A stretch of 64,000 nucleotides of DNA from Methylomonas sp. (GTDB lineage Bacteria > Pseudomonadota > Gammaproteobacteria > Methylococcales > Methylomonadaceae). The first letter of the stretch is position 1; the number at the start of each line of letters is the position of its first letter. Below, in pieces: positions 3,422 through 33,419 of the stretch. Both the position numbers and the translations under genes were made by a program. The notes beneath the pieces were generated by a model. It did no database searches. It was not told the origin of the DNA and saw nothing but the letters and a program-made list of their open reading frames with translations. The stretch is from positions 1 through 64,000 of the forward strand of contig PERU01000016.1 in the NCBI GenBank assembly GCA_002928965.1, written 5' to 3'.

Positions 3422-5373
3422 TTTTCGACTCCGTTCAACAGTTGCAGAAATTCCTGTTCATTGATAATCACAACCCCCTTGTCGCGGGCGGCAGTGAGCT
3501 TATTGGCGCCGACATTGTCACCGGCCACCAGATAATCGGTTTTGGCAGACACCGAATTGCCGACTTTGGCCCCTTTGGTTTTGGCTTGTTTGCTTAATTC
3601 GTCGCGGCTGCCGCTGTGTAAGGTACCAGTGAACACCAAGGCTTTACCCGCTAATGGGTGGCTGCTATCGGTTAGATCACGCTGGCTGGTTTGGATATTG
3701 AAACCTAGAGTCATCAATTGATCGAACAGCGGTTTGATGTTGGCAAAGCCTTCAGTGATGACTGCAGCGGTCTTTTCTGCAAAGCCTTCAATGACGATAA
3801 TGTCAGCTTCGTTGAGCTTGAAAATATCTTCGAGGCGATAGTGTGCGAGTAGTCTTTCACAATTGCCCAAGCCCATGCGGAATACTCCAAATGCCGCCAA
3901 AAACCGCCAGTCTTCCACCGTTTCGCTGCGGCTGCGGTGTAATTGTTCGAGCAAGTTTTGTGATTGTTTTGGGCCAAAACCCATACTTTCGAATTGTTCT
4001 GCGCTTAGCGCATAAATGGCATCGACCCGGCGAATGCCAAATTCGTATAGTTTTTTGATACTGGCCGCACCAAAGCCATCATTGTTTTTAAGCACACGAA
4101 AAAAGTGTTCCATGCTGTTGCTGATTTGCGCCGGGCAGTTCAGATTGTTCGGGCATAGCAAATAGTCGTTATCCCAGATCAAACTGTGACCACAACTGGG
4201 GCATTGCTCAGGGACTTGCGGCGTTGCAGGTCGCAACACTTGCTCGATTTTGGGAATCACTTCGCCCGAGCGCGCCAATTGAATCAGCGCGCCGGGGCCT
4301 ATGCCTTTATCGAGGACCATTTTGTAATGATGAGCTGTGGCTCTGGAGAGCAGGGCGCCGCTGAGCCTGACCGGTTCCAGTTCTGCAACCGGGGTAATTC
4401 GCCCGGAACGTGAGGTTTGCGGCGTGACGCTCAGTACCTGCACTTCGGCGGTTTGCAGGTTTTCCTTATAAGCCAGTTGCCAGCGATGGTGATGGCGGGT
4501 AGCGCCCATGAAGCTTTTCAATTCTTCATCGACGATTTCCAGAATCACGCCATCGACATCGAAATCCAGTGCATGCCAGATGTGTTTGATGATATTTTCA
4601 AAGTCGCTTATCAGGGTTTGCCAGGTGCCGCTCCAATGCGGTAGCAAGGTAAAGGGATAAAACACGGCGGCATGATCCCGGATGGCTTGTTCTGCATGGG
4701 CATCCAATTGTTTTTCTTTGATTACGCTGGCTTGAAAATTACGGGCGTTGTCGAAAACATCGGCTAATTTTTCATCGAAATAACTGCGGGATACCACGAT
4801 TTCACCCGGACCCAGGCCGCGTTTGCCTTGATTAGCCACTTGCAGGCCTCGCTCGAATACCCGGGAAATATCCTGACCTTTACGGCCATCGCCACGTGTA
4901 TATAGCATTTGCCCGTCATCATATGCCGCGTAACCATCCAGTTTAGGCGTGACTTTAAATAGCAATTCGGCAAAGATTTTGTCCAGTTCCGCAGCGGCTT
5001 TTTCGATGCGTCCCGCCCAGCGCTGGACATCATCCAGGCTGTAAGCTTTATCGGTTGATAACATGGTGACAGGCAAATCCACGGTCTTTCCGGCAAATGC
5101 CGGTTCCGGTTCTACGGTTTGAAGTAGTGGATGCTCAGGGTGGCGGTTTTTAAGCTCAGCCAGATACGCAAAATCATAATCCGCATCGCTGATAAGCGGC
5201 TCGCCACCGCGATACAAGGCATTGGCTATTTCGAGAAAACATATCAGTTCATGGTCATTGGCAGACTGAATCAATTCGGGATTTTGGCAAAGCTGACAAA
5301 AACGATCTTCGTTGAGTGCATCGAATTGCAGGGCTGCTTGTGAAACAAGTTGTTTCTGGCTGGGTGTGAGCAT
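3418..5373 (-). CDS. Divergent NAD+-dependent DNA ligase (LigA-like)
   Basis: Seals DNA nicks using NAD+. Domains in order: Ia NMN-binding domain (about 45-120), nucleotidyltransferase with KLDG lysine K144 and motif III GEIVV (E191), OB fold with the AYK lysine near 303, a four-cysteine zinc finger near 393-415, helix-hairpin-helix repeats, and a BRCT domain in the last 80 residues. It departs from ordinary LigA: the Ia Tyr-His pair reads YRG at 54-56, and the DGVVIKV motif reads DGVILEI, so a conserved lysine is glutamate. At 651 residues it is slightly short. It heads an overlapping unit with thiD and thiE. It is probably a second ligase, with a standard ligA elsewhere. Confidence 0.85.
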   Translation of the reverse strand: MLTPSQKQLVSQAALQFDALNEDRFCQLCQNPELIQSANDHELICFLEIANALYRGGEPLISDADYDFAYLAELKNRHPEHPLLQTVEPEPAFAGKTVDLPVTMLSTDKAYSLDDVQRWAGRIEKAAAELDKIFAELLFKVTPKLDGYAAYDDGQMLYTRGDGRKGQDISRVFERGLQVANQGKRGLGPGEIVVSRSYFDEKLADVFDNARNFQASVIKEKQLDAHAEQAIRDHAAVFYPFTLLPHWSGTWQTLISDFENIIKHIWHALDFDVDGVILEIVDEELKSFMGATRHHHRWQLAYKENLQTAEVQVLSVTPQTSRSGRITPVAELEPVRLSGALLSRATAHHYKMVLDKGIGPGALIQLARSGEVIPKIEQVLRPATPQVPEQCPSCGHSLIWDNDYLLCPNNLNCPAQISNSMEHFFRVLKNNDGFGAASIKKLYEFGIRRVDAIYALSAEQFESMGFGPKQSQNLLEQLHRSRSETVEDWRFLAAFGVFRMGLGNCERLLAHYRLEDIFKLNEADIIVIEGFAEKTAAVITEGFANIKPLFDQLMTLGFNIQTSQRDLTDSSHPLAGKALVFTGTLHSGSRDELSKQAKTKGAKVGNSVSAKTDYLVAGDNVGANKLTAARDKGVVIINEQEFLQLLNGVEK

Positions 5374-31961: not shown

Positions 31962-32576
31962 ATGCATGTGAGCCAACATAAATCTCAGTTTGTCGCCGTT
32001 GCGTCGATTGCCGCAGAGTTAAGTGCTGTAATGGAGGTTGCAAAAGAAATTTCCCTCGCAGCGGCCAATGCCAAAGCCATTGCTTTCAGAGCAGGGGAAA
32101 AAGCTAAGGGATTTCAACCGATTACTGATTTTATTAATGAACTGGCAAAAGAAACCATCGAGCTGGTCAATAATATCAACGAACACGCTCTTAAATTGTA
32201 TCGCTTGACTGTTATCGAATATCGGATGTCAGAAGCTTGCAGACGTTTTGAATCCGTAGCAGTGCGTTCTGCAAACGCCACTTACGCGACCACACTTAAA
32301 CAATCTTTAGACAATGCCCGGCAGCGTCGGAATGATTGTCAACGACAATTTGCCCGGCACGTTTCGGAATTGTTGGCGCAGCTGGCGGATGTGATGCATC
32401 CGGCCAGAGCTGCGCGAGTGATTGCCGCCAACTCGCGTATTGAAGCGTCCCAGGCCGGAGAATATCTCCAAAGCTTACAAGCTGTGGCAGAGAGCGTAGA
32501 CAATGCAGCACAAATCATCCACGACAAGGTGCACAAATGTCGCAGCGCCTTAAGTGTGATCAATACTGACGAGTAA
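31962..32576 (+). CDS. Soluble chemoreceptor-like (MCP signalling domain) helical protein
   Basis: A 204-residue all-helical protein without signal peptide or membrane helix. Two stretches resemble the hairpin tip of methyl-accepting chemotaxis proteins: EISLAAANAKAIAFRAGEKAKGF (29-51) and AANSRIEASQAGEYL (155-169), each followed by an amphipathic helix. In true receptors this tip (NAAIEAARAGExGRGFAVVA) binds CheA and CheW. Here the residues are altered, so it is either a degenerate receptor fragment or a short adaptor. The next gene encodes an ODP-like diiron protein 42 bases downstream, so the two probably form an operon and an oxygen-sensing pair. The family itself I cannot name. Confidence 0.65.
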   Translation: MHVSQHKSQFVAVASIAAELSAVMEVAKEISLAAANAKAIAFRAGEKAKGFQPITDFINELAKETIELVNNINEHALKLYRLTVIEYRMSEACRRFESVAVRSANATYATTLKQSLDNARQRRNDCQRQFARHVSELLAQLADVMHPARAARVIAANSRIEASQAGEYLQSLQAVAESVDNAAQIIHDKVHKCRSALSVINTDE

Positions 32577-32618
32577 TTCTCGGCTCATCGAAAATTAAGT
32601 AAAGAGGCGAAGTCATCC

Positions 32619-33347
32619 ATGAAAATGACCAAAATTTATGAGGGTAACTATCAGTGGATCATGTATGGTCGCGACCCGAATAAACCCGATAAAATTATCG
32701 ACACCAATCAATATGTAGTGCGCACGGCTAATCGTTGTCTGTTGATCGATCCCGGTGGGGTTGAGCTGTTTGCTCCCATGCTGGCTGCGGTATTGCATCA
32801 TGCGCCGGTGGATGAAATTACTGATTTGTTCGCCTCACACCAGGACCCGGATATTATTTCTTCATTAGGTTTATGGGATCAGGCGTTGCCACATGCCAAG
32901 TTGCATGCAGCTGGCTTATGGGAAGGTTTTTTACGTCATTTTGGTTGCGATAGCATTCAGTATGTGCCGATTCAGGATAACGGTGGCGTAATTAATTTAG
33001 GTAGTGTTGAATTGCAAATTATTCCAGCCCACTATCTACATTCATCAGCAAATTTCAATATTTATGACCCGCAGGCTAAAATTTTGTTTTCGGGTGACAT
33101 TGGCGCAGCATTGGAATCACCGGATGCGCCGGTATTTGTGGATAATTTTGATGCCCATATCGAGAAAATGCGTTATTTCCATCAGCGCTGGATGCCGTCC
33201 AATCAAGCTAAACGGGCTTGGGTTGAGCGAGTGCGCAGTCTGGATATTGATATTCTTGCACCCCAGCATGGCCGCATGTTTAAAGGAAATGACGTGAAGC
33301 GGTTTTTGGATTGGTTTGAGTCGCTACAAGTTGGGATTGCCGTATAA
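32619..33347 (+). CDS. ODP-like diiron protein, metallo-beta-lactamase fold
   Basis: A 242-residue protein of the flavodiiron-type metallo-beta-lactamase fold but without a flavodoxin domain. All expected iron ligands are visible: H74, D76 and D78 in SHQDPDI, H138 in IPAHYLH, D160 in FSGD and H217 in PQHGRM. The HQDPD form matches the oxygen-binding diiron proteins (ODP) known from Treponema denticola chemotaxis, where the protein senses oxygen/iron and signals to a soluble chemoreceptor. Start at 32619 follows an AGAGG ribosome site; an ATG two codons later is also possible. Its neighbour at 31962 is receptor-like. Oxygen reduction is an alternative role. Confidence 0.8.
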   Translation: MKMTKIYEGNYQWIMYGRDPNKPDKIIDTNQYVVRTANRCLLIDPGGVELFAPMLAAVLHHAPVDEITDLFASHQDPDIISSLGLWDQALPHAKLHAAGLWEGFLRHFGCDSIQYVPIQDNGGVINLGSVELQIIPAHYLHSSANFNIYDPQAKILFSGDIGAALESPDAPVFVDNFDAHIEKMRYFHQRWMPSNQAKRAWVERVRSLDIDILAPQHGRMFKGNDVKRFLDWFESLQVGIAV

Positions 33348-33379: not shown

Positions 33380-33391
33380 CCCGCAAAATTG

Positions 33392-33419
33392 AGCCTCCGT
33401 CGCAAGATGGGGGCTTTTT
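33392..33419 (+). terminator. Terminator-like hairpin before miaB
   Basis: AGCCTCCGTC pairs with GATGGGGGCT (two G-T type mismatches, short loop) and is followed by TTTTT. It can end transcription from the ODP gene 45 bases upstream. If the TATAAT at 33374 is used, it would instead lie in the miaB leader and could attenuate it. Confidence 0.65.

Follow-up and report, generated by a model that had tools for sequence, protein, structure and literature searches.

A soluble double receptor-tip protein paired with an ODP-family diiron protein in Methylomonas sp., a probable miniature input to a chemosensory array

In a stretch of 64,000 nucleotides from Methylomonas sp. (positions 1 to 64,000 of contig PERU01000016.1, assembly GCA_002928965.1; hereafter the window) analysis of the open reading frames (ORFs) finds two genes arranged head to tail on the forward strand with 42 bases between them. 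The first encodes a protein here called p1, which carries two segments resembling the tip of methyl-accepting chemotaxis proteins (MCPs), and the second an ODP-family diiron protein (Table 1). A preliminary description, made from the letters alone, had placed both frames correctly and had read them as a miniature oxygen- or iron-responsive signalling pair, in which the receptor is reduced to an adaptor with two tips. This reading is supported by the predicted tips, by the adjacency of the two genes, by the che operons that surround the pair in some relatives and by the co-occurrence of the pair with CheA.

As had been described, p1 has no membrane helix: its highest Kyte-Doolittle mean over 19 residues is 1.5 versus 2.36 in a true MCP encoded at a related locus (L169, see below). 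The two tip-like segments are real. When compared by hhalign with a profile of MCP tips, the first half of p1 scored 57.7 (best of 100 column-shuffled controls 21.0) and the second half 47.8 (best shuffle 21.5), the middle region alone giving no match. A chance resemblance of the second tip was ruled out by the shuffled, reversed and middle-region controls. In tip-to-tip register the match of the two halves with each other is weaker and varies with the settings; in one of the two settings used it scored 27.9 with a probability of 60%, against at most 18.7 in 100 shuffles. Within p1 the two tips rank among the best-conserved stretches, the middle region being variable. The tip profile was built from 49 MCP sequences picked by a motif that demands residues of the E385, R388 and F396 type (numbering of Tsr), and the full conservation of these residues in the profile is therefore not independent evidence. 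The Pfam domain MCPsignal (PF00015) gives p1 24.8 bits, below the cut-off of 34.6, with a best match confined to the first tip; within the p1 family it matches 53 of 70 members at 1e-3, the best E-value being 2.2e-7.

AlphaFold2, supplied with a 70-row alignment, predicts for p1 a four-helix bundle formed by one chain with both tips at one end (pLDDT 89.9, pTM 0.80) and with a helix break in each tip (Table 1). The antiparallel hairpins with MCP-like tips, on which the preliminary description had staked its reading, are thus present in the model. A straight first helix of 100 residues, which a model from 21 rows contained in place of the tip-1 break, was discarded in favor of the break at residues 49-50; both models can be superposed on four-helix bundles made of a single chain, and the reading as hairpins was therefore retained. 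From each tip the predicted helices extend for no more than about 37-54 residues, whereas the methylation sites of Tsr lie about 80-100 residues from its tip, and neither Pfam nor hydropathy reveals a sensor or transmembrane region. p1 therefore falls short of a full MCP in its domain score, in its lack of sensor and membrane parts and in the absence of a region for methylation, yet it resembles a receptor tip; it has the two signalling hairpins in one soluble chain that characterize natural single-chain soluble MCP signalling domains.

The second protein matches Pfam PF19583 with an E-value of 9.6e-72 and 241.4 bits (cut-off 27.2) and the solved oxygen-binding diiron proteins 6qrq and 6qnm with E-values of 1.3e-62 and 5.6e-54. 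It is the single ODP of its genome at E 1e-20 and, in agreement with the preliminary description, lacks a flavodoxin domain, Pfam giving only ODP/Lactamase_B over its 242 residues. The ligand set of a diiron site (H-x-D-x-D, H, D, H) is complete. Five of the six ligands named in that description (H74, D76, D78, D160 and H217) stand in conserved motifs; the sixth is probably H141 rather than H138, because the histidine of the LHW motif in the flavodiiron protein 4dik aligns with H141. In 126 aligned rows H74 is conserved in 124, D76 in 126, D78 in 125, H138 in 122, H141 in 123, D160 in 112 and H217 in 124.

Table 1. Features of the p1-ODP locus, with positions in the window.
Feature	Positions	Strand	Basis
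p1, 204-aa soluble single-chain double MCP-tip protein (predicted four-helix bundle)	31962..32576	+	ORF; MCPsignal; profile comparison; AlphaFold2
First tip copy of p1, aa 22-60	32025..32141	+	alignment, position counts; helix break aa 49-50
Residues of first tip: N36, R43 (Tsr R388 equivalent), G45, F51 (Tsr F396 equivalent), P53; Ile at Tsr E385 position			
Loop of p1 between the two hairpins, at the far end from the tips, aa 103-108, in variable middle region	32268..32285	+	predicted secondary structure; low conservation
Second tip copy of p1, aa 143-180	32388..32501	+	alignment, position counts; helix break aa 163-165
Residues of second tip: N157, E161 (Tsr E385 equivalent), G166, E167; Gln at R388 position, Leu at F396 position			
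ODP-family diiron oxygen-binding protein, 242 aa	32619..33347	+	Pfam PF19583; PDB 6qrq
ODP metal motif H74-x-D76-x-D78	32838..32852	+	alignment to 6qrq and 4dik; conservation
ODP H141, likely middle histidine ligand (not H138)	33039..33041	+	aligns with LHW histidine of flavodiiron protein 4dik
ODP D160, position of bridging aspartate (role presumed from flavodiiron proteins)	33096..33098	+	conservation
ODP H217, PQHG motif	33267..33269	+	conservation; alignment
Terminator-like hairpin followed by T run, 3' of ODP	33391..33416	+	weak: scan gives 2 sites vs 1.5 expected by chance

A comparable pair has been described from another phylum. In Treponema denticola an ODP (TDE2498) is, according to the available portion of PMC7666581, linked genetically with an MCP homologue (TDE2496) that is soluble, devoid of transmembrane and sensing modules and able to modulate CheA. 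The two systems have in common an ODP with a soluble MCP homologue; p1 differs from TDE2496, with which we compare it by description only, in consisting of a double tip without room for methylation helices. By analogy with the solved homologues and with T. denticola, the ODP of the window may sense O2 or Fe(II).

As the preliminary description had anticipated, the homologues of the two genes adjoin each other in nearly every case. Among 61 relatives, full-length p1 is encoded in 33 genomes, in each of which a close ODP match adjoins (in G029 the contig ends within ODP). Taking all DNA examined together, ODP lies directly downstream in 114 of 121 distinct p1 matches. Four of the seven exceptions run into contig ends (L087, L063, L005 and L120, the last two within a partial ODP); in L166 p1 overlaps ODP and falls just outside the distance rule used; in L072 an intact ODP frame follows after an insert of about 390 bases (4104-4491) in which many inverted repeats can be seen by eye; and L168 proved to be a false p1 member. 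Two pairs are plasmid-borne, the sole matches among 72,556 plasmid records, and are annotated as 'chemotaxis protein' or 'hypothetical protein' plus 'MBL fold metallo-hydrolase'. Natural fusions of p1 with ODP were not seen in the loci read, no search having been aimed at them. A second, very divergent pair of adjacent genes, with a p1 only 17% identical, is found at L027:4148-5525 in G005 and also in G034, genomes that contain the main pair as well.

In a sample of the class the p1 profile matched 23 of 369 genomes, one of them (G164) with an ordinary receptor. A scan of the phylum gave matches in 179 of 398 genomes, with a clear p1 (open frame of 203-232 residues, more than 100 bits) in six among the matches listed, all from the same class (G000, G727, G510, G697, G769 and G757). 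Since 7-8 candidates per genome were scored in both scans, the counts are lower bounds, and receptor-rich genomes may hide members. A spread beyond the Gammaproteobacteria was considered and rejected, the other listed matches of the phylum scan being weak and mostly located in long receptor-like frames. The members of the p1 family span about 21 families.

This distribution bears on the question whether p1 is the remnant of an MCP in decay, or a helical bundle of generic type that resembles a tip by accident, as could be thought from its Pfam score and from a structure search whose matches were all general helical bundles, with Foldseek E-values that are weak. No MCP cytoplasmic chain was among the structure-alignment matches listed; because solved MCP chains hold one hairpin each, their absence is not counter-evidence. 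The shuffled controls, the conservation across families and the strict pairing with ODP have already largely refuted this explanation, which is hardly credible any more.

In some relatives the pair resides in or next to che operons. In L169 Pfam gives the order CheY-CheA-CheW-MCP-CheW-STAS-CheR-CheD-CheB-MCP-STAS-HATPase-like-p1-ODP (the HATPase match being below the cut-off), in L166 the order STAS-CheA-MCP-CheW-p1-ODP-CheR-CheD-CheB, and in L025 the order p1-ODP-STAS-CheY-CheA-CheW-ParA-like, flanked on the opposite side by divergent genes for STAS, a SpoIIE-type regulator and an MCP. In L162 (9057-17870) the pair is part of a flagellar cluster, on the same strand after FliG, an FliI-type ATPase, FliK and flagellin, with one gene for a 197-residue protein without Pfam match between flagellin and p1. 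CheA, CheW, CheR, CheB or CheD is encoded within 10 kb of p1 in 59 of the 121 distinct matches. A record named Bathymodiolus methanotrophic endosymbiont (L069) has kept the pair together with CheB, CheR, CheD and MCP genes.

CheA is found in all 33 p1 genomes among the relatives (45 of 61 overall) and in all 22 p1 genomes of the class sample (236 of 369 overall). FlhA is found in 31 of the 33, being missed in G059 and in G029, which is 78% complete. It is CheA, not flagella, that p1 accompanies: three genomes (G004, G042 and G053) have FlhA and neither CheA nor p1. The idea of a non-flagellar system, which came from G059 with its pair and no FlhA match, was dropped, as this genome has FliG and the missing FlhA may reflect an assembly gap.

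The statement of the preliminary description that there are no che genes in the window holds for CheA, of which there is no match on the contig of the window (C16), and for the ORFs at about 19.3-37 kb, where no che genes were seen; other che genes were not searched for in the rest of the window. The neighbours of the pair, as read from their sequences, are housekeeping genes: queE and queC upstream and miaB, ybeZ and ybeY downstream. Promoter-like sites number 3 versus 3.1 expected by chance and are given little weight, as is the terminator scan. Elsewhere in the genome, on contig C35, a che cluster encodes a CheA that is orthologous to p1-linked CheAs of relatives: the CheA next to p1 in L169 is 74% identical to it and at most 40% to the other three CheAs of the genome, and the CheA of L025 is 54% identical to it and at most 37% to the others. 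The CheA of L166 belongs to another line (50% identity to the CheA of contig C1). From these identities the p1 of the window most likely serves the C35 array, though not adjoining it.

In L025, L161 and L169 the pair is accompanied by STAS, SpoIIE-type or HATPase-like genes, which might form a partner-switch output. That the signal of the pair goes to such STAS and SpoIIE-phosphatase proteins instead of CheA would agree with their position next to it at these three loci, yet the tips are parts of the CheA/CheW type, the co-occurrence with CheA is complete in the tested genomes, and the STAS genes of L025 and L169 are themselves located inside che clusters; we consider such an output highly improbable.

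ODPs are found in yet another context. Ten loci carry more distant ODPs (L034-L043). A GGDEF-EAL gene is the neighbour at seven of them (L034, L035, L036, L038, L039, L042 and L043), a GGDEF gene at one, near a contig end (L041), and neither at L037 and L040. ODP thus appears paired either with cyclic di-GMP (c-di-GMP) enzymes or with p1, which suggests that the same sensor family may put c-di-GMP under oxygen/iron control at the eight loci L034-L036, L038, L039 and L041-L043. Some distant ODPs share genomes with the p1 pair (G009, G025 and G056). Residues R18, D19, D28, E49, F71, A72, S81, L85 and K198 separate the p1-linked ODPs, together with three linked to the divergent p1, from the ODPs of the ten loci, a difference that shared descent could also explain. 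The frequent company of GGDEF or GGDEF-EAL (8/10 loci) is the pattern of an interchangeable sensor and, like the missing flavodoxin domain, speaks against a role of ODP chiefly as an enzyme of O2 reduction or a related reaction, for which p1 would only be the scaffold at the array and signalling would be secondary; despite the fold of the flavodiiron/metallo-beta-lactamase superfamily such a role is very unlikely.

The two tips of p1 have diverged from each other in a manner that touches the contacts between receptors. In 70 aligned rows the first copy has the equivalents of N381 in 70, F396 in 70 and R388 in 63, and that of E385 in none (Ile, Leu, Val or Met instead), whereas the second copy has the equivalent of E385 in 66, Leu at the position of F396 in 69 and, at that of R388, Gln in 51 and Arg in 7. 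According to the available part of PMC8144572, the equivalents of E385 and R388' in a model of NpHtrII form an inter-dimer ionic lock at the trimer axis, F396 contributing by stacking. The two subunits of a receptor dimer are placed differently, one at the trimer axis and the other facing CheA/CheW, as stated in the accessible portion of PMC4692393, and these unlike places give a reason for the two halves of p1 to diverge. Since each tip keeps one side of the lock, three molecules of p1 showing the same tip could not close it; a single p1 joined by two ordinary receptor dimers could preserve two of the three locks. Judging from the residues, p1 would be unfit for trimers of its own and could join mixed ones. 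It is conceivable, although we hold it to be doubtful, that p1 is a receptor dimer whose subunits were fused and then specialised, and which as a minority guest in mixed trimers brings a soluble oxygen/iron signal into membrane arrays.

The same losses (E385 in copy 1 and, in most rows, R388 and F396 in copy 2), together with the absence of a membrane anchor and of adaptation helices, could also be those of a decoy, which occupies receptor sites on CheW/CheA without activation and is released or held by ODP, thus acting as an oxygen-dependent brake on the array. That the two tips belong to the best-conserved stretches of p1, and that the ODP-coupled soluble receptor of T. denticola is reported, in the available portion of PMC7666581, to be able to modulate CheA activity, makes a decoy unlikely.

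In our interpretation p1 is probably a natural single-chain receptor tip and ODP its detached sensor for O2 or Fe(II), the signal being directed to a specific CheA/CheW array. With two MCP hairpins fused in a soluble chain, one molecule of p1 would mimic the CheA/CheW-binding end of a receptor dimer and would do so without membrane, sensory, HAMP or methylation parts. Binding of O2 and/or Fe(II) to the diiron site would alter the docking of ODP on p1, most likely at that end of the bundle which is variable and lies away from the tips; p1 would then relay this signal to one particular array, in the genome of the window most likely that of the che cluster on contig C35. What we infer are the contacts of p1 with ODP and with CheA/CheW and the direction in which kinase activity would change.

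Several observations weigh against this interpretation. The match between the halves of p1 is weak in one of the two settings used (score 21.7, probability 15%). Canonical tip residues are lost: in the first copy E385 is replaced by Ile and V398 by Pro, in the second R388 by Gln and F396 by Leu, which makes ordinary receptor-like trimers doubtful. Not every member retains the diiron site: in 13 of 125 distinct ODPs, all linked to p1 and all from Methylococcales-type records, Ser replaces D160 while the other motifs are kept (L074, L081, L084, L085, L086, L088, L090, L091, L092, L094, L098, L119 and L120, where PQHG was not seen at the contig end); to judge from these residues, their metal site or its ligand may differ. 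The pair of the window sits between queC and miaB apart from che genes, and in the 18 class loci L148-L165 neither CheA, CheW, CheR, CheB nor CheD was found in flanks of up to 10 kb, some of which end at contig ends; a common location with CheA/CheW is therefore a property of relatives, but neither of the window nor of these loci. Of the 59 che-linked matches 54 are close relatives (L147 and loci with a p1 at least 70% identical) and not independent, and since p1 and CheA are both clade-structured, the P values for their co-occurrence (1.5e-7 and 3.7e-5) overstate independence.

Other precedents are known. Natural soluble single-chain MCP signalling domains, stated to be of unknown function, occur in Rhodospirillum centenum and a few other organisms, and a single-chain Tsr~Tsr has been engineered (available portion of PMC4692393). 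p1 shares with both the presence of two receptor signalling regions in one chain, a likeness judged by description; it differs in that its two copies have diverged and in its ODP, no such partner being mentioned in that portion of the source. According to the accessible part of PMC7319448 on the ODP paper of 2019, ODPs share operons with MCP genes in either of two orders and are also found as fusions with signalling domains, and some p1-ODP pairs may already be counted in the operon groups of the 2019 paper. The ODP of the window belongs to this same family (PF19583; 6qrq, 6qnm) and has the same metal motifs, its partner here being a double-tip protein. A literature search, in which the 2019 PNAS paper was available at second hand, found no description of a 204-residue double tip with an ODP. 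New are the minimal size, the strict pairing, the wide spread and the two diverged tips, each of which keeps one side of the trimer ionic lock.

The p1 family offers a natural single-chain receptor whose sensor partner is defined, whose CheA is predicted and whose methanotrophic hosts are in culture, and its distribution together with that of ODP suggests a plug-in sensor that acts on a double tip in one place and on c-di-GMP enzymes in another. Because the p1 of the window scores below the Pfam cut-off for MCPs, chemoreceptor catalogues based on domains may miss it. If p1 joins mixed trimers, the asymmetry of the receptor dimer would be hard-wired in its sequence. To our knowledge no receptor-like input to a chemosensory array would be smaller than this pair of a sensor protein and a bare double tip. 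Methane oxidisers live at oxygen gradients, and an oxygen input to their behaviour would therefore be of ecological interest.
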